This document shows positions 56,223 through 64,000 of a stretch of DNA of 64,000 bases, piece by piece (the stretch's first letter is position 1; each line of letters starts with the position of its first letter). The translations under genes and the position numbers were made by a program. The notes below the pieces were generated by a model that did no database searches, was not told where the DNA came from, and saw only the letters and a list, made by a program, of their open reading frames with translations. The stretch is taken from assembly GCF_019977235.1 (NCBI RefSeq), contig NZ_AP024646.1, positions 1,426,001 through 1,490,000 of the forward strand. The letters run 5' to 3'. The DNA is from Arthrobacter sp. StoSoilB5 (GTDB lineage Bacteria; Actinomycetota; Actinomycetes; Actinomycetales; Micrococcaceae).

Positions 56223-57584
56223 TCAGTATCGTCCCAGCAACTCTCTTAATCCGTTGGCGGCGAAGCTGGCCACGGCCTCTGCCCGGTCAACGAAGCCGTG
56301 GGCACCAACTGGCTCCACCGATGCCAAAAGTCCTGCGGCGTCGGCCAGGCTCATGGTTAGCTCGGCTGTCAGGCTACCCGTACGCAAGCCGTTCACTTTC
56401 AATACTGCCCTGCGCGAGTCGGTCCACGCGTCCGGACCGGGATCGTCCCGCAAGGTGCGCGTCAAGGCCACGTCCTGCCACCCGCCGTCGAGCCTGATGC
56501 GTGCAAGGTATGTGACGTCGTGGCCTTGCGTCTCTACGTGGCCGCCGGAGAGGAAGATGCGGCCACCGAAGAGCGGGTGCTCCAGGAATCCCGTGAACTG
56601 CGGCGGCGCCCCGGACCCTGCCGTGGGCAGAATGACAGTGCCTTTGAACGTCAGGGGTGAGCCCTCCAGTTCGCTGCGCAGGGTGTCGTTGAAACGGACG
56701 CCCGCCGCTGGTTCGGTCATGGCGGTGCAGCTGGCGTCTTTCGGTACGCCGGCTGGCGTCATAGTGTCCAGGTACGCGCGGGCATCCCGATATCCCATGC
56801 CGATCAGGGTATCGGCGTCGATCCTGCCCAGGTAGAACTCGGGGTCCAGCGGAAGCGGATGCTCGGGGCGCACTACATGCAGCACAAACTCGCGTCCAGC
56901 CGCCCTCGCAGCCTCAAAATCTGCAAGGAGGGCTCCCATGGCGCTCATTTCGATCATGTGGACGTACTGCTCCAGGGGACCGTCGCCCCAATATGGCGAG
57001 TTGCCGATGCACCAAATCAGCCACACTTCCTCCGCTCCCCGACGCAGGGCTTCGGCTACGTTGGCGTCACGCATCCAGACGGCATCCGTCCAGATCTTCC
57101 CATCCCGGCGCAGAGGTGTCAGGAAGATGGGTAGTGACATTCCCGCGGCCATGAGCTCCGCATCAATCGCGGTGGCATCGATTGCGTGGCATTGCTTCCC
57201 GGTGAACTCCACCACGTTGAAGGAACCCTCGACGGCGCCCGGTTCCGCGGCGCGGCCGCGGATGGTCGCATCGTTGATGCCCAGGGTGGGAAAGACCTTG
57301 TTCAGGATGCCGTCGGCATCGCCTATAGCTGGCAGCGACCATGGGCCTTTGAGGTAGTCGCCGACGGGCAGCGCCGAGCCGAAGTCCTTGACGTCCACGC
57401 CGGACCACCGGGTACACATTTCTGCCGGCGAAACCCCGGACAGCAGCATCCCTGCCGTCAGGATCCCGCCGGAGCTGCCGTCAACATGCTGGAACTCGAG
57501 TCCTTCCTCGGCGAGCGCCCTCATGACGCCGGCCTGCCAGGCCACGCGCATTCCGCCACCTGCGAGCACCAAAGAACGCTTCAC
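56223..57584 (-). CDS. Patatin-like phospholipase
   Basis: 453 aa from GTG 57584, with GGAGG nine bases upstream. The patatin core has the oxyanion loop LVLAGGGMRVAWQAGVM (residues 5-21) and the nucleophile motif VDGSSGGILTAG (Ser38). The dyad Asp is probably Asp167 in KIWTDAVWMRDAN. The residues after about 270 form a separate, partly beta-rich C-terminal domain (FLEHPLFGGRIFLSGGHVET, MSLADAAGLLASVEP) of unknown role. Patatins hydrolyse acyl lipids. It is the last gene of the seven-gene operon; its start overlaps the preceding stop by 4 bp. Confidence 0.9.
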   Translation of the reverse strand: MKRSLVLAGGGMRVAWQAGVMRALAEEGLEFQHVDGSSGGILTAGMLLSGVSPAEMCTRWSGVDVKDFGSALPVGDYLKGPWSLPAIGDADGILNKVFPTLGINDATIRGRAAEPGAVEGSFNVVEFTGKQCHAIDATAIDAELMAAGMSLPIFLTPLRRDGKIWTDAVWMRDANVAEALRRGAEEVWLIWCIGNSPYWGDGPLEQYVHMIEMSAMGALLADFEAARAAGREFVLHVVRPEHPLPLDPEFYLGRIDADTLIGMGYRDARAYLDTMTPAGVPKDASCTAMTEPAAGVRFNDTLRSELEGSPLTFKGTVILPTAGSGAPPQFTGFLEHPLFGGRIFLSGGHVETQGHDVTYLARIRLDGGWQDVALTRTLRDDPGPDAWTDSRRAVLKVNGLRTGSLTAELTMSLADAAGLLASVEPVGAHGFVDRAEAVASFAANGLRELLGRY

Positions 57585-58090
57585 AGCGCGTTTCCTCCGG
57601 CCATACCCCCTCCGGCCATACCCCCACTGATCCGTCGCCAATAGACGAACAGGAGTACCGCCGTCGCGAGGTCAAAGAAGGCCACCAGGAGCGCTACGGG
57701 TGAGAAGACGCCGTTCAGTACCCCGATTCCGACGGCGCCGAACGCCCCTGCTTTCTGCAGTCCGGACCACAGCACCACCTCGGGAGAGGGCATGGCGTTG
57801 AGCAGGGTGTGGAGGAGCAGTCCGCCCACCACCACCATGAACATGCCCACGGTTCCGAAGAGTTGGCGCATTCCGGGCGTGGGGTCGGCGCCGATCAGTT
57901 GCAGGACCGTGCCGCCAAAGGGAACCTGCACGGCCCCGGTCAGGACTGTGATGATGGCGATTGCTGCCAGGATGGCGCGGAGGGGATCGGCGGCGGCCCA
58001 GGCCAGCACGCCGGGGCGGCGGGCCTGGTGGTGGGCCTGGTTGTGGGGCTGGTGGTGGGGAGCCGGCTGTGCTGGCTGATGTGCGGTCAT
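57581..58090 (-). CDS. Putative membrane protein of the lipid operon (gene 6)
   Basis: 169 aa. Polar, His/Gln/Pro-rich N-terminus (QPAPHHQPHNQAHHQ), then four hydrophobic segments (ILAAIAIITVLTGAVQV, TVGMFMVVVGGLLLHTLL, AFGAVGIGVLNGVFSPVALL, FFDLATAVLLFVYW) and a Gly/Met-rich tail (GGMAGGGMAGGNAL). No family was recognised. The start overlaps the upstream stop by 4 bp, and its own stop overlaps the patatin start by 4 bp. Confidence 0.8.
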   Translation of the reverse strand: MTAHQPAQPAPHHQPHNQAHHQARRPGVLAWAAADPLRAILAAIAIITVLTGAVQVPFGGTVLQLIGADPTPGMRQLFGTVGMFMVVVGGLLLHTLLNAMPSPEVVLWSGLQKAGAFGAVGIGVLNGVFSPVALLVAFFDLATAVLLFVYWRRISGGMAGGGMAGGNAL

Positions 58091-58569
58091 GCGAACGACT
58101 CCAGCAGGCGGCCGCGATCCACCAGCAGCCACACCATGGCTGCCCAGGTCAGCGTGGAGACGTAGAAACGGATGTCGTTGAGCATCATCCAGCGCTTCAG
58201 CAGGGAGCGCAGTTCAGAGTCGTCCGCGAAGTCGCCGCCCCGGATGCGCTTGTTGATGGGAATGATGATGCCTTGGCCAACCCAGGTCAGGACGATGATG
58301 CCCACCAAGCAGATGATGGCTGGAATGACGCGGATGGTGCCCCACTCGGACCACACCAGGATGCCGCCGGAGATGAACATGATGGGCACCACGATGGTGA
58401 AGAACTTGGTGGCCGCGCGGGTGGGGATCCCGAAGTGCATGTCCACGTTGTCGCGGGCCAGCGAGCGCCAGGTGGGGTACAGGAAGAACTTCAGGACCCA
58501 CATGGTGCCCACGTACATGGTTGCACCGAACAGGAAGTAGAGCGCGTTGATGAGGAGTAGCCAGGTCAT
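58087..58569 (-). CDS. Putative membrane protein of the lipid operon (gene 5)
   Basis: 160 aa with four hydrophobic segments (LLLINALYFLFGATMYVG, FFTIVVPIMFISGGILVW, IRVIPAIICLVGIIVLTWVG, FYVSTLTWAAMVWLLV) joined by charged loops. It somewhat resembles small DUF1772/anthrone-oxygenase-like four-helix proteins, but I cannot confirm this. It overlaps its neighbours by 4 bp at each end. Confidence 0.8.
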   Translation of the reverse strand: MTWLLLINALYFLFGATMYVGTMWVLKFFLYPTWRSLARDNVDMHFGIPTRAATKFFTIVVPIMFISGGILVWSEWGTIRVIPAIICLVGIIVLTWVGQGIIIPINKRIRGGDFADDSELRSLLKRWMMLNDIRFYVSTLTWAAMVWLLVDRGRLLESFA

Positions 58570-59549
58570 TGGACGCTTCCCGGAGTAGCGCGGGGTACGG
58601 CGCCGGAGCCTTCCGTCGCGGCAATCCGGCTCCGGTCCGGTGGGGCCAGCCATTCCTGGCCCTGGCCCAGGTTCACGACGCTGTCCAGCATGTCGCCTCC
58701 CCGAAGGGCTGCTGCATCGGATTCCGTGGGTGCCGTGAGGAACCAGGCTTCGTAGTGATCGTCAAGGACACCGTGGGCTTGCGGCAGCCAGGCGGTGAAG
58801 ACTGGTTTGCTTTCCACCTGCAGGTTCTTCAAAGGCTCGACGCCGGGCGCGTCACCGAGGATGAGGCGCGCCTTGGCCTGTGCTCCGAGGGCGATGTCCC
58901 CGATGGCTTCGAAGTAGATATCGGATTTCCAGAGCATGTTCCGGAAGACGCAGTAGTTTGAGGCTGCGAGCTTCAGGGGCAGGCCGAGGGGCTCGGGCCG
59001 TTCTATTTCGATGTAGCAACCCAGCCGGCCGTCCTTGTCGTACTGTGCTGACACCGTGGAATCGGTGACCACGAAGTCCAGGTTGGCCTGATGCTTGGGC
59101 ATGCCCCAGATTCCCTTGCCACCCTTGACCGAAACCTCTGAACTAACGGGCAGGTCCACAACGAACTGGCCCAGTTTGAAGGTTTTCTGGAAGATCAGGG
59201 GGAGGATGGGCGGGGCGGGCCTGCTGCCGTGGGTGATGGCTATGGCCAGCGAGTATTCGATGTACTTGCCAATGTCCGTGGACTTGTAATTGACCACTGT
59301 GACCACAAGCAGCCCTTTGCCGCCCAGGCTGAAGGGCCGCATTTCTGTGCCGGGGAGTGCGGCGGCCGCGGCTTTCTTGTTGATGGGGAAGGCCGCCATG
59401 AGCACGGGGGAGTCATCGGAATTGACTGGCATGACGTACTTGATGCCATCGGCGAGTGCGTGCTGGCCGCGGAGCCGTTCCTGGCGTCGGGGAACCGGGG
59501 ACGGCATGAGCTTGAGTAGTGGGGTTACCAGTTCGGTGAGTGTTTTCAT
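58566..59549 (-). CDS. Acetoacetate decarboxylase family protein
   Basis: 327 aa from ATG 59549. Central ADC-like fold with VSVKGGKGIWGMPKHQANLD, where the motif MPKH resembles the catalytic-lysine neighbourhood of acetoacetate decarboxylases, and ASNYCVFRNMLWKSDIYF. Many ADC-fold proteins do not decarboxylate acetoacetate but form Schiff bases with other keto compounds. A longer N-terminal open frame looks spurious. It overlaps the hydrolase upstream and gene 5 downstream by 4 bp each. In this context a beta-keto product of the GMC enzyme is a plausible substrate (inference). Confidence 0.82.
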   Translation of the reverse strand: MKTLTELVTPLLKLMPSPVPRRQERLRGQHALADGIKYVMPVNSDDSPVLMAAFPINKKAAAAALPGTEMRPFSLGGKGLLVVTVVNYKSTDIGKYIEYSLAIAITHGSRPAPPILPLIFQKTFKLGQFVVDLPVSSEVSVKGGKGIWGMPKHQANLDFVVTDSTVSAQYDKDGRLGCYIEIERPEPLGLPLKLAASNYCVFRNMLWKSDIYFEAIGDIALGAQAKARLILGDAPGVEPLKNLQVESKPVFTAWLPQAHGVLDDHYEAWFLTAPTESDAAALRGGDMLDSVVNLGQGQEWLAPPDRSRIAATEGSGAVPRATPGSVQ

Positions 59550-60601
59550 GAATTCGGCTCCTTGGTTCCGTTGAGCTCCTGGACAATGACCGGGAAGGTG
59601 TCCTGCCATGCATGATCGCCGAAGAAGACGTCCAGATGCCCGTAGCCGGGGATGAGGTGGAGGGAGTCCTTCCCAGGCCTGTGCTTTTGGAAGAATTCGA
59701 ACGTGCGTTGTTGGCTTTCGGGAAGGAAACATAGGTTGTCCATCCCGGCAATGAACGCGAACCGTGCATCTGTTTGGGGAGCCTCGGCCACAAAGTTCTC
59801 CGGTAGTTCCGGATGGTTTCCGGCAGCCACCATGTGGCCGGCTTTGATGCTGCGGCCCATCTCCTCGAAGAACGTCACGGGAACCTCGGCGAACTCACCG
59901 CTGAGCCATTGGTGAGTGGCGTCGTCGAGGTTTTCGTGCGCCCAAAGGGCCGGGCGGCCACTGCCGTAGGTGAAGCTGACCATCTTGCAGACGATGTTGT
60001 CGCACTCGCGGTGCGTGGCTTTGACCAGGCCCCGGATGGCCCTTGTGAAGTAGCCCTGCGATTTATAGCCCCACGCCGGGGACAAGTAGGGAGTGAAGAC
60101 CTTGACCACAGGCGTCAGGTAGTCGATCTTGAGCCGGGAGAACGCCGGCACCACGGGATGCAGGGATACGGCGTTTGAGACGATCGTGTCCACCTGGGGC
60201 AGCAGCCCGGCCACCGCGGACATGGTGAACGACGTTGATCCCTGGCAGTGGATGACGGCTTTCATCGTTTCCGCGCCGGTGGCGTTGAGGACGTGCTCGA
60301 CGGCGGCAGGATGGTCGTACACGGCGGCGTCGGCGAGCGTCCAGGAGAGGGGATCGAGGTCGATGGATGCCCGCCAGTTCAGCATCCACACGTCCCATCC
60401 GTCCTCCAGCAGGACGTCCACTATGGTGGTCCGGACAGGAGGCCGGAACAGCTCTGCCCGGACTCCGGAACCGTGGACCAGCATGACCGGCCCTTTGGTC
60501 ACCTCCACCGGCGACGTCACATGGACCAGGCTCAAAGGGGTGTTGTCCCGGGCACGGAACGGGATGACGTCGGTCCGGTGCTCGGCACGGGTGATGATCA
60601 T
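59546..60601 (-). CDS. Alpha/beta hydrolase (PHA-synthase/lipase-like fold)
   Basis: 351 aa. Oxyanion motif GPVMLVHGSGVRAELFRPPV, DVWMLNWRASIDLD, nucleophile elbow KAVIHCQGSTSFTMSAV (Ser122) and catalytic His in LIPGYGHLDVFFGDHA. The Cys-Gln-Gly-Ser elbow resembles the PHA-synthase and steroid-linked hydrolases that occur beside or fused to GMC oxidoreductases. It overlaps the metallophosphoesterase and ADC-like genes by 4 bp each. Confidence 0.88.
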   Translation of the reverse strand: MIITRAEHRTDVIPFRARDNTPLSLVHVTSPVEVTKGPVMLVHGSGVRAELFRPPVRTTIVDVLLEDGWDVWMLNWRASIDLDPLSWTLADAAVYDHPAAVEHVLNATGAETMKAVIHCQGSTSFTMSAVAGLLPQVDTIVSNAVSLHPVVPAFSRLKIDYLTPVVKVFTPYLSPAWGYKSQGYFTRAIRGLVKATHRECDNIVCKMVSFTYGSGRPALWAHENLDDATHQWLSGEFAEVPVTFFEEMGRSIKAGHMVAAGNHPELPENFVAEAPQTDARFAFIAGMDNLCFLPESQQRTFEFFQKHRPGKDSLHLIPGYGHLDVFFGDHAWQDTFPVIVQELNGTKEPNS

Positions 60602-62625
60602 GGTGCGGTTCCTTTCCGCATGATGGTGATGGGTTCTTCAAGCAGCCGTACGGTTGGCAGGCCGGATTCCGGAACCAGCCGCGCGCCGTCGTCGTTCTGT
60701 GCCAGCTGCCAATCGCGGCAGACTGTGTCCACCACCAGCGGGTAGACAGTCAGGTTGCCGTCATCGGCGAGGTGGAGGCGCAGGAATCCCTTATGGTCTT
60801 CGATGGATTGGCCGGACATTTTCCATGTGGACACCTCCCCGCTGGGCGTCGCCAGGATGAACAGCGCGAAGGCCTCACTGCCAAGTGCCCAGCCACCCAG
60901 GTACACCAGCGCCAGCGCCAAGAGCAGGATCACGACGTCCGGCCACCCGTTTGGCCAGGGAAGCAGGATCACGACGGCGGAACTCACCGCGAGTGCGGAC
61001 AGTTGGTAAAGGGTGCCCCGGGTGAAGACCACGATGCCTGCCTTGGACAGCCCGAGCAGTCGTGCCAGGAGCGATACGACTGCAAGCACGATCGGCACCA
61101 CAAGGATCAGGACAACGACGAGGAGCAGGGTGTTCCCACGGGTCAGGCTACGCAGGCTGTCCACAAAAGACTCCCCACGGAACGCGCTGAAGACTGTCCA
61201 GAGCGTCACTGCGGCGACCACGTGGACGATGCCCAGGGACAAGCCGAAGCCAGGGTTGCGGATGGGGAGCCAATACTGCGAGAAGGGGTTCGCGAGCCGT
61301 GGACCGAGCAAGTGGGAGTCGGCCTGGTCCGGGTAGAGGGTGGGCATTCGCGTGAAGTGGCGTGTTGTGGGTGGTGCTTGATCCTGGCCACGGTGGGAGT
61401 TTTCGGGCTCGGTGATGCTGGAGGACAAGCCCTGTGCATTCGCGTGGCCGGGAAGGATGAGGTGTTCGGGGAGCCAATGTGCATCTGAGAGATACGCACC
61501 GCCCAGGCCGCAGGTGATCATCTGCGTTCTCGCTGGATCCGGTGGGAGGTTTTGTGTGCCCTGTTTGTCGGCGTTCTTTCCGTCAGGGAATGATCGTTCC
61601 TCGTAGCGGGAATAGTGGTGGAGATCGCCGGTGAGCCACAGCCGCACGTTTGCGCCTGTGGCCTCGAACAAGCCCGTCTCGGGATTGAACCGGCGGCGCA
61701 GGTAGTCCTGCTCGAAGAAGTTCACCTGCCGGAACTCATTGGGCCCTGGTTGATCCGCGTCGACCCAAAAAGGGGCGGCGACGCACAGGATGATGGCGTC
61801 TCCGGGTTGGAGCTGCAGCGTGACGTTCCTATAGAAGTAGTCCAATTGAGGTTCATCGATGTACTGCCCCAACTGGCTGTCCAGGCCCAGGATCCACCAA
61901 CCGGGGGTGCCATCCTGCCGTTCGCCGGAAACCTCCGTGGGCGATTGACCTGTGAGCCTGACCGCGAAGTAGCTGCGGGTCTGGATGGTCCGCCAGCCCC
62001 CGATGCTCCGTTGCCGCGTGAACATCCGGATGAACGAGGTCAGGCCGTCGTACCAGTCGTGGTTGCCTGGGAGCGCGAGCATGACGGGTGTGGGATTGTG
62101 CTTGGTGGGCAACGCCATCCGGTAGGGCCCTGCCATCCGATTCTGGTAGGCAGCCGGTGAGGCAACGGGGTAGACCTCATCTCCTCCGAGGACCAGGACC
62201 CTGCCGCGGGGGAGCTCGTGGCCGTCAACCGTTAGCTTGTCCTGGGCGAGCAGCAAAGCGACGGAGTAGGTTGCGTCGAATCCGTCTCCCAGGTCTGCGG
62301 TGAAATCGAGCCACAACTCGGTGGGGCCTGGAGGCCCGCCGGCGCTTGTAGGGCGTGATGCCGCGAGCTCCCCGGGCGACGGGAGCCCGCGGCTTGTGAC
62401 CGGCGGCTGGGCCGGTTGGCCGGGGACGGGGAGTTTGTCCAGGCGTAAAGGATCAGCCGGAAAACTGCCCTCGAGTTCCCTTTTGTCACCGAAGTCCGCG
62501 AACACAGTCGCTGCCATGACTTTCAATGCCGTCCTTGCCAGCGACATCGGCGAGAGCCAACGAACCGCAGCCTGGGGGGTGAAGCCCAGGGCAACACGGT
62601 GCCTCGCAAGCTCCCAGCTCTTCAT
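60598..62625 (-). CDS. Membrane-anchored metallophosphoesterase
   Basis: 675 aa from ATG 62625. The calcineurin-like core shows LWLDFTADLGDGFDATYSV, VLVLGGDEVYPVAS, VMLALPGNHDWYDGLTSF (GNHD) and RLWLTGDLHHYSRYE (GDLHH). After about residue 430 come four to five hydrophobic helices (SLGIVHVVAAVTLWTVFSAF, LLLVVVLILVVPIVLAVVSL and others) and a small C-terminal soluble part. Metallophosphoesterases of this length with C-terminal helices are seen in actinobacteria; substrate unknown, possibly a lipid or nucleotide phosphate. Overlaps the GMC and hydrolase genes by 4 bp each. Confidence 0.88.
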   Translation of the reverse strand: MKSWELARHRVALGFTPQAAVRWLSPMSLARTALKVMAATVFADFGDKRELEGSFPADPLRLDKLPVPGQPAQPPVTSRGLPSPGELAASRPTSAGGPPGPTELWLDFTADLGDGFDATYSVALLLAQDKLTVDGHELPRGRVLVLGGDEVYPVASPAAYQNRMAGPYRMALPTKHNPTPVMLALPGNHDWYDGLTSFIRMFTRQRSIGGWRTIQTRSYFAVRLTGQSPTEVSGERQDGTPGWWILGLDSQLGQYIDEPQLDYFYRNVTLQLQPGDAIILCVAAPFWVDADQPGPNEFRQVNFFEQDYLRRRFNPETGLFEATGANVRLWLTGDLHHYSRYEERSFPDGKNADKQGTQNLPPDPARTQMITCGLGGAYLSDAHWLPEHLILPGHANAQGLSSSITEPENSHRGQDQAPPTTRHFTRMPTLYPDQADSHLLGPRLANPFSQYWLPIRNPGFGLSLGIVHVVAAVTLWTVFSAFRGESFVDSLRSLTRGNTLLLVVVLILVVPIVLAVVSLLARLLGLSKAGIVVFTRGTLYQLSALAVSSAVVILLPWPNGWPDVVILLLALALVYLGGWALGSEAFALFILATPSGEVSTWKMSGQSIEDHKGFLRLHLADDGNLTVYPLVVDTVCRDWQLAQNDDGARLVPESGLPTVRLLEEPITIMRKGTAP

Positions 62626-64000
62626 CTGCGTGGCCGCAGTGGGCTCCGTAGCGGGAACGGAATCCGTTTGAGGCCCCGTCCGTACACCTGCCACAACTCA
62701 CCGGCGAACAGTTTCATGAAGGACGCCAAACCCGCAGCCGGGGCCGGGCCCTCGGCACGGAACGTGGTCAGTTGCTTGGCGAAGTCGAGCGGGCGGATGT
62801 ACAGAATGCCAGCACCGAAGACGTCCTCCCCGCCTTGCTCATCTACGCCAGGCGTTTCCGACGGCGGAACGTGGCCCCGCAGGATCGTCGCGTAAAGCGT
62901 GGTGGTGTCTTGCCAGACGTCCAGTCCTGCCTCGTTATGAATCAGCTTGTACCCGGTAAACGTGAACGGTGTCCCGCCCGGGTCCCGTAGCCACAATCGG
63001 TACAGCATGCGCCTGGCTGGCCTGCCATCATCGGAAACGTCCTCCACAAAAAGGTTGAACCAGCCTCGTTCCACCGGCATCCGGCCACCGAAGTAATCTG
63101 CCAGGACATACCCCTCCGCCTTCGCCGGGTGGCTCAGGTCCTCCACGAACCTATCCATGTCCGCGGCGGTAATCGTTAGCTCGAACATGATCTTCCGGCC
63201 CCGGTCCCTGCCCAGGCTTCGCCCCTTCTCCGGATCGCTGAATCCGGGACTGAACCAGCCGTGCATCTGCTCGGTGAACCGCACAGACGTCCGCGTGTCT
63301 GTTGCCGCCGGTTGCTGGTCTCGGGGTTGCGGCAACCCCAAACCACGGCTCCTGGTTCCCTCAGCCGGGACATCAGCGACGCCGCTCGCGGGCCGCTCCT
63401 CCTGCGCGCCCTTGCCTTTGGTAGCGTCGGGCGCCAACTCGCGGGGAACTGACGGATGGGTGCCGGCATCAGTCAGGTCGCCGGCACCAGCAGCATCAGC
63501 GGGGCTGATTCCCCTGTGTGCGGCACTGTGGGTGCTCTCAAGGATGTGCGCGCAGGTGCGTTCGGCGAAGGCGGAAATGGTCAGCGACGGGTTGGCGCCT
63601 ACAGGACCCGGCATCGCTGCGCCGTCCACCACGAACAGGCCGGGATATCCGAATACCTCGCCGTATGAGTCACACACCGCCTCGCCCGGATGCCGGCCGG
63701 ACGGCGCGCCGCCAATGGGGTGGACCGTGATGACGCGCTTGGCCCACCACAGGGGATTGTCGATGAAGTCCCCGTCGAGGTCCTTGGCGATCTCGGACAT
63801 CGTTCCGCGGACGCGTCCGAAGTAGTCCTTGGAGGTCGCCATGGTCCACGCGATGGCGAGCCTTCCGTCGCGAAGGGTCATGACGCCGTCGGGGATATCC
63901 CGTCCCATCCCAAGCAGCGGCACCGAACTGGAGGACAGGCGCCCATCACCCAGTGCGGCGGCGAGGTCGGCAGAAACGTTGGAGCGCCCGGCGTCGAACA
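62622..64000 (-). CDS. GMC family oxidoreductase with long C-terminal domain (5' end outside window)
   Basis: The frame is open to the window end; its start lies beyond base 64000. The visible 459 codons hold the C-terminal part of a cholesterol-oxidase-like GMC flavoenzyme: VTVHPIGGAPSGRHPGEAVC (active-site His region), GYPGLFVVDGAAMPGPVGAN and PSLTISAFAERTCAHIL. A Pro/Ala-rich linker follows, then an approximately 200-residue beta-rich domain (MFELTITAADMDRFVEDLSH, KLIHNEAGLDVWQDTTTLYA, MKLFAGELWQVYGRGLKRI) that I do not recognise. Similar architectures in actinobacteria and myxobacteria are annotated as cholesterol oxidase. It is the first visible gene of the operon and overlaps the metallophosphoesterase gene by 4 bp. 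Confidence 0.88.
   Translation of the reverse strand, partial: FDAGRSNVSADLAAALGDGRLSSSSVPLLGMGRDIPDGVMTLRDGRLAIAWTMATSKDYFGRVRGTMSEIAKDLDGDFIDNPLWWAKRVITVHPIGGAPSGRHPGEAVCDSYGEVFGYPGLFVVDGAAMPGPVGANPSLTISAFAERTCAHILESTHSAAHRGISPADAAGAGDLTDAGTHPSVPRELAPDATKGKGAQEERPASGVADVPAEGTRSRGLGLPQPRDQQPAATDTRTSVRFTEQMHGWFSPGFSDPEKGRSLGRDRGRKIMFELTITAADMDRFVEDLSHPAKAEGYVLADYFGGRMPVERGWFNLFVEDVSDDGRPARRMLYRLWLRDPGGTPFTFTGYKLIHNEAGLDVWQDTTTLYATILRGHVPPSETPGVDEQGGEDVFGAGILYIRPLDFAKQLTTFRAEGPAPAAGLASFMKLFAGELWQVYGRGLKRIPFPLRSPLRPRR

Follow-up and report, generated by a model that had tools for sequence, protein, structure and literature searches.

The 64,000-nt stretch of Arthrobacter sp. StoSoilB5 DNA analyzed here (the window; bases 1,426,001–1,490,000 of the 5.30-Mb single-contig genome NZ_AP024646.1) carries seven overlapping genes for a GMC oxidoreductase (GMC), a metallophosphoesterase-like protein (MPE), an alpha/beta-hydrolase-fold protein (ABH), an acetoacetate-decarboxylase-fold protein (ADC), two small membrane proteins (MEM1 and MEM2) and a patatin-like protein (PAT), which, at the level of sequence comparison, prove to be a tightly coupled, conserved unit common to Actinomycetota, Bacteroidota and, with fewer genes, Pseudomonadota. 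That this cassette is a functional unit seems almost certain, and the enzyme families represented make a lipid its probable substrate, while the whole reading favored here, i.e., an intracellular, membrane-associated lipid-processing pathway at the inner membrane face with the steps proposed below, has in our estimation about an even chance of being right.

A Tightly Coupled Operon

All six junctions between the seven genes are 4-bp ATGA or GTGA overlaps, as had been claimed in an earlier reading of this DNA made without database searches (the sequence-only reading) and as was seen at each of them on the minus-strand sequence, versus 1 of the 20 same-strand neighbor pairs elsewhere in the window (a baseline from a rough gene caller run on the window sequence alone). 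When the operon is followed past base 64,000, GMC turns out to head the series of seven, its 5′ end, read from the adjoining sequence, being genome base 1,491,282, i.e., 1,282 nt outside the window. The description of the genes as a tightly coupled unit extends to relatives as well, 4-bp overlaps being present at 100 of the 114 junctions in 19 loci that share the window's gene order. On the same strand, the closest frames are separated from GMC by 148 bp on its upstream side and from PAT by 142 bp on its downstream side, and might thus still be co-transcribed with the operon.

Conservation, Gene Order and Age

Two separate scans, in both of which one and the same strain may figure, were used for finding the cassette elsewhere: one anchored on MPE, whose alignment was scanned over named genomes (the best 80 of 288 confirmed loci were kept), and one anchored on the ADC-like gene in species genomes of the window's family and phylum, of the class of Aquiflexum and of the phylum of a Rhodocyclales genome. 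Strong matches other than those in the window's own genome and in the two anchor genomes make up the 11 ADC-anchored loci; outside these 11 also stand six ADC matches from the Aquiflexum class (E-values from 5.5e-22 to 8.5e-16) and a partial match in G281. All seven genes are present in 9 of the 11 (one of the nine belonging to the Aquiflexum class, Bacteroidota), six in L114, which lacks MPE, and three in L118, while the cassette of Aquiflexum itself (L077) is complete. Among the 80 MPE-anchored loci, 13 (L014–L022, L024, L027, L068 and L077) have all seven genes, 31 have GMC near MPE, and the Rhodocyclales locus L090 has six genes, MEM1 being absent. The conservation of these genes as neighbors, which the sequence-only reading had offered for refutation by just such a search, therefore withstood it, given the complete ADC-anchored loci and the complete Aquiflexum cassette. 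Carriage of the ADC gene is rare in the family (9/245 genomes); strong matches amount to the window's own and one other among the 246 genomes of its phylum and to 2 among the 247 of the Aquiflexum class, and the phylum of the Rhodocyclales genome yields matches in 2 of 299.

The gene order is not the same everywhere: Bacteroidota and Rhodocyclales show ABH-ADC-MEM1-MEM2-PAT-MPE-GMC (L090 without MEM1), and MPE comes first in L068 (Solirubrobacteraceae). Four distant cassettes (L068, L077, L117 and L119) have an eighth gene between MEM2 and PAT, for which the overlap of these two genes leaves no room in the window; its product in Aquiflexum (L077, 8190–8594) is a small DUF4345 protein (43.8 bits, cut-off 26.5), which the products in the other three resemble by eye. 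In a midpoint-rooted tree of ADC, ABH and PAT, Actinomycetota stand on one side of a split and Pseudomonadota together with Bacteroidota on the other (99/99), and, although several of its rows are long-branched, this split suits an old cassette retained by few lineages better than a recently spread one. Pairwise divergences of eight domains correlate over 16 loci at r of 0.85–0.98, to which shared ancestry contributes. That the genes might be co-transcribed yet serve separate housekeeping roles, as relatives of MPE and GMC found apart from the cassette could indicate, is very improbable, since the same set recurs across phyla together with gene fusions, which largely refute this explanation, and with a shared mobile domain (see below).

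An Alpha/Beta-Hydrolase-Fold Protein with a Cysteine Nucleophile

The sequence-only reading had counted “two acyl or ester hydrolases” among the products, which cannot be upheld as written because ABH carries a Cys where such enzymes have their Ser nucleophile and an Asn where they have the catalytic Asp. The Cys is invariant (19/19 sequences, then 35/35 with the motif HCxGS), and the Asn is found at the acid position in 35/35, as judged by a loose motif. The best profile matches of ABH are gastric and acid lipases (gastric lipase and lysosomal acid lipase/cholesteryl ester hydrolase), with 1hlg being matched at 64 bits over nearly the full length and the catalytic His being shared; unlike these enzymes, however, all of the ABH proteins examined have Cys for Ser, as well as Asn for Asp. 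The residues expected of an acid-lipase-type serine hydrolase (Ser in GHSxG plus Asp) are thus not those of ABH, as the alignment to 1hlg also shows.

Next in the profile ranking come polyhydroxyalkanoate (PHA) synthases (34.8 bits), and the polyhydroxybutyrate (PHB) depolymerase PhaZ7 is matched at 19–20 bits. PHA synthases (PhaC) use a Cys nucleophile, which, together with the alpha/beta fold, ABH shares with them, and it could be imagined that the cassette makes or breaks PHA or another hydroxy-acid polyester, with ABH as its Cys synthase or depolymerase and with GMC and ADC processing 3-hydroxy acids. We consider this improbable, as ABH reaches 18.6 bits with the class III PHA synthase model TIGR01836 (cut-off 365.3), differs from PhaC in having Asn instead of the catalytic Asp, and is encoded within seven genes that include no phasin or other granule protein, no PHA gene and no coenzyme A enzyme.

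The GMC Protein and the Mobile XD Domain

The GMC protein belongs to PF05199 (51.8 bits, cut-off 24.6) and falls under the cut-off of the N-terminal GMC model PF00732 (20.5 versus 23). Cholesterol oxidases are its nearest solved relatives (105 bits; e.g., 4u2l and 1coy), with which the FAD motif, the His of HPxGG and the Asn of NPxxTI align; the latter two, His521 and Asn564, match active-site positions of 4u2l, are conserved in 11/11 sequences and presumably have the active-site role of their equivalents in cholesterol oxidase. In contrast to cholesterol oxidase, the protein is 886 aa long, has an extra domain (XD), is a member of a seven-gene unit, shows no export signal by hydropathy and is far under the cut-off of the NCBIfam cholesterol oxidase equivalog NF058674 (195.8 versus 850 bits).

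It is from these relatives, and from the cholesteryl ester hydrolase among those of ABH, that a degradation of sterol or steroid esters might be envisioned, in which ABH and PAT would split the esters, GMC would oxidize the 3-hydroxyl in the manner of cholesterol oxidase and ADC would decarboxylate a 3-keto-4-carboxylate; weaker relatives of 3-ketosteroid dehydrogenase (KstD), scoring 284–574 bits against a cut-off of 788, are also found in six carrier genomes besides the one above the cut-off. Several results make it an unlikely explanation: the GMC score is as given above, the Ser and Asp of acid lipases are missing from ABH, no export signal is seen by hydropathy, and a single one of the 20 carriers has a KstD above the cut-off, the window's genome reaching 33 bits at best (at E 0.001, the model matches all 20 carriers and all 14 control genomes, so that the cut-off alone counts). 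Squalene-hopene cyclase is strong in two of the 20 carriers (470 and 452 bits) and marginal in two (26.9), which makes 4/20 above the cut-off; its model also matches 2 of the 14 controls. The carriers therefore lend no support to a cluster for steroid catabolism or hopanoid synthesis. Sterol-like chemistry, as suggested by the sequence-only reading, thus comes down to a resemblance.

XD occupies residues 643–886 of the GMC protein and matches no Pfam family. It follows GMC in relatives, follows patatin in L023, L025, L090, L118 and L119, precedes ABH in the XD-ABH fusions of L028, L029, L078, L086 and L088, is placed between GMC and ABH in a single frame of L075 (GMC-XD-ABH), and is free-standing in L067, L070 and L081, with L067 also showing a GMC-ABH fusion. 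The structure predicted for it is a barrel rich in strands, with a helix at the C-terminus (predicted local distance difference test score, pLDDT, 88; predicted template modeling score, pTM, 0.82), for which no significant match was found among solved structures (best Foldseek E-value 0.03). A shared docking module is what XD may be, though we would put this at somewhat less than an even chance.

The Remaining Products of the Cassette

ADC is a clear member of the acetoacetate decarboxylase family (PF06314, 57.6 bits, cut-off 29.8). Its Lys152, conserved in 12/12 and then 26/26 sequences (WGMPKH in 25 and WGMPKY in L109), stands at what we take to be the position of the Schiff-base lysine of the clostridial enzyme; a sequence search with the ADC protein found no solved ADC structure. 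The group differs from other PF06314 members in its own WGMPKH motif, with His after the Lys, and is tightly conserved and found with the cassette.

PAT belongs to PF01734 (87.2 bits, cut-off 27.7) and shares with patatin-like phospholipases the Ser motif, here GSSGG, and the Asp, differing from them in its C-terminal XD or divergent XD domain. In the window's protein, residues 291–453 are a short divergent XD copy by profile comparison (probability 83, E 9e-6), undetected by the XD profile alone, while the L119 patatin scores 77 bits with both profiles. The Ser is conserved in 26 of 27 sequences, L027 having it in another frame, and the L017 motif reads AASGG. The cassette patatin of Microbacterium saccharophilum (L027:14345–16028) is split over two frames. 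An anti-phage defense system was rejected as an identity of the cassette, PADLOC models matching 0/7 of the proteins; the Aquiflexum patatin reaches 18–19 bits with two NCBIfam anti-phage lipase models whose cut-offs are 400 and 200.

MPE falls short of the calcineurin-like phosphoesterase model PF00149 (15.3 versus 21.5 bits), and its fold is that of a purple acid phosphatase-type metallophosphoesterase. The full ligand set of purple acid phosphatases consists of DxG, GDxxY, GNH(D/E), VxxH and GHxH, of which MPE retains DxG in 46/48 sequences, GDxxY in 47/48 (the Asp and Tyr in 48/48) and GNHD in 48/48. Possession of the full set was rejected: the fourth motif has no conserved His, and GDxH replaces GHxH in 48/48. 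These two differences, as well as helices inserted before the last strands, set MPE apart from purple acid phosphatases and Plasmodium GAP50. MPE genes of a solo group (49 loci, L030 onward; mostly Micromonosporaceae) encode proteins 30–39% identical to the window's MPE and have surroundings resembling a housekeeping neighborhood.

Hydropathy places hydrophobic segments in MPE, MEM1 and MEM2, and no N-terminal hydrophobic segment was seen by it on GMC, ABH, ADC or PAT. Three MEM1 homologues score 26.0, 26.6 and 15.0 bits with Anthrone_oxy (PF08592), and two of these values come close to the cut-off of 27.3, which might hint that MEM1 is an enzyme resembling anthrone oxygenase and that the genes form a small cluster for the biosynthesis of a natural product, either an oxygenated aromatic or a ketone; we give this little credence, as all three proteins scanned are under the cut-off and the seven genes include no synthase or carrier protein.

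A Proposed Lipid-Processing Pathway

In the membrane-associated lipid pathway that we favor, patatin, by way of its Ser/Asp dyad, would release an acyl chain or lipid, which ABH would hold as a thioester on Cys119 and transfer or condense rather than hydrolyze; the GMC flavoenzyme would oxidize a secondary hydroxyl beside a carboxylate, giving a beta-keto acid, and the ADC-fold enzyme would form a Schiff base on Lys152 and decarboxylate this acid, leaving a ketone. We propose that patatin acts first, followed by Cys-ABH, GMC and ADC, on purely chemical grounds, because an oxidized alcohol beta to a carboxylate suits a Schiff-base decarboxylase, and this route from an alcohol through a beta-keto acid to a ketone is, by itself, rather unlikely to be correct. 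The membrane-bound MPE might remove or exchange a phosphate head group, MEM1 and MEM2 might hold or oxygenate the lipid, and the XD barrel, which moves between GMC, patatin and ABH, could serve as their shared docking or lipid-holding module.

Several points weigh against this pathway. The order of the chemical steps is purely a deduction from the families to which the enzymes belong; the MPE metal site, without one expected His and with Asp for another, may mean that the protein is not a phosphatase; and lipid binding by XD is a guess, as its barrel has no significant structural match. In 49 of the 80 loci of the MPE scan, some of which are truncated where a contig ends, MPE stands without the other cassette genes, and it was found neither in the draft genome of L114 nor in the genome of L118 (G660). 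The latter locus consists of ABH, ADC and PAT-XD only, with a GMC-XD frame of 1,156 aa elsewhere in the genome, and GMC and MPE are, therefore, perhaps dispensable to the core.

Every recognized enzyme of the cassette falls into a known superfamily, and in kind the cassette would be a lipid-metabolism operon. The sequence-only reading knew of no described pathway with this gene set, and none was encountered in keyword searches of the open literature (titles and the starts of abstracts, with subscription papers and preprints outside their reach). Four enzyme superfamilies and three poorly annotated parts are kept together across phyla, and this conservation provides a clean handle on what would be an undescribed lipid pathway, with XD, which has no Pfam match, as a marker for finding it in other genomes. 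The cassettes of Actinomycetota mostly have overlapping genes, and their carriers include cultured Arthrobacter and Paenarthrobacter strains. The cassette also casts doubt on two likely annotations, namely a “hydrolase” with a Cys nucleophile and a “metallophosphoesterase” with altered ligands. Most broadly, an old cross-phylum pathway can be pictured in which a single membrane lipid intermediate, held by the shared XD, is worked on by a Cys-His-Asn ABH, a Schiff-base ADC-fold enzyme and a patatin, the product being a ketone of lipid origin or some other modified lipid that nobody has looked for, a picture that we regard as possible though on balance doubtful.

Features of the Locus

Coordinates of the cassette features, in window positions
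Feature	Description	Position	Strand	Remarks
GMC	GMC oxidoreductase, cholesterol-oxidase-like; first gene	62622..64000 (part within window)	-	886 aa
XD	C-terminal beta-barrel domain of GMC protein	62625..63356	-	No Pfam match; on other cassette proteins in relatives
MPE	Hydrophobic C-terminal stretches and purple-acid-phosphatase-like domain	60598..62625	-	Altered metal-ligand set
ABH	Alpha/beta-hydrolase-fold protein	59546..60601	-	Cys119 nucleophile, Asn289, His322
ADC	Acetoacetate-decarboxylase-fold protein	58566..59549	-	Lys152 in WGMPKH
MEM1	Small membrane protein	58087..58569	-	Borderline Anthrone_oxy
MEM2	Small membrane protein	57581..58090	-	No Pfam match
PAT	Patatin-like acyl hydrolase	56223..57584	-	Ser/Asp dyad; residues 291-453 a short divergent XD copy

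An ADC gene 96% identical to that of the window is located at NZ_AP024648.1:1027992–1028975, on a 1.35-Mb replicon listed as an Arthrobacter sp. StoSoilB13 plasmid. Upstream of the operon, 78–105 nt before the GMC ATG (genome 1,491,360–1,491,387; L006:11360–11387), lies a block, GGACAGA ... GTGGGAACAT, that is retained with small changes in most of 16 aligned Micrococcaceae loci, L114 being more divergent, and that is a possible promoter or operator candidate.

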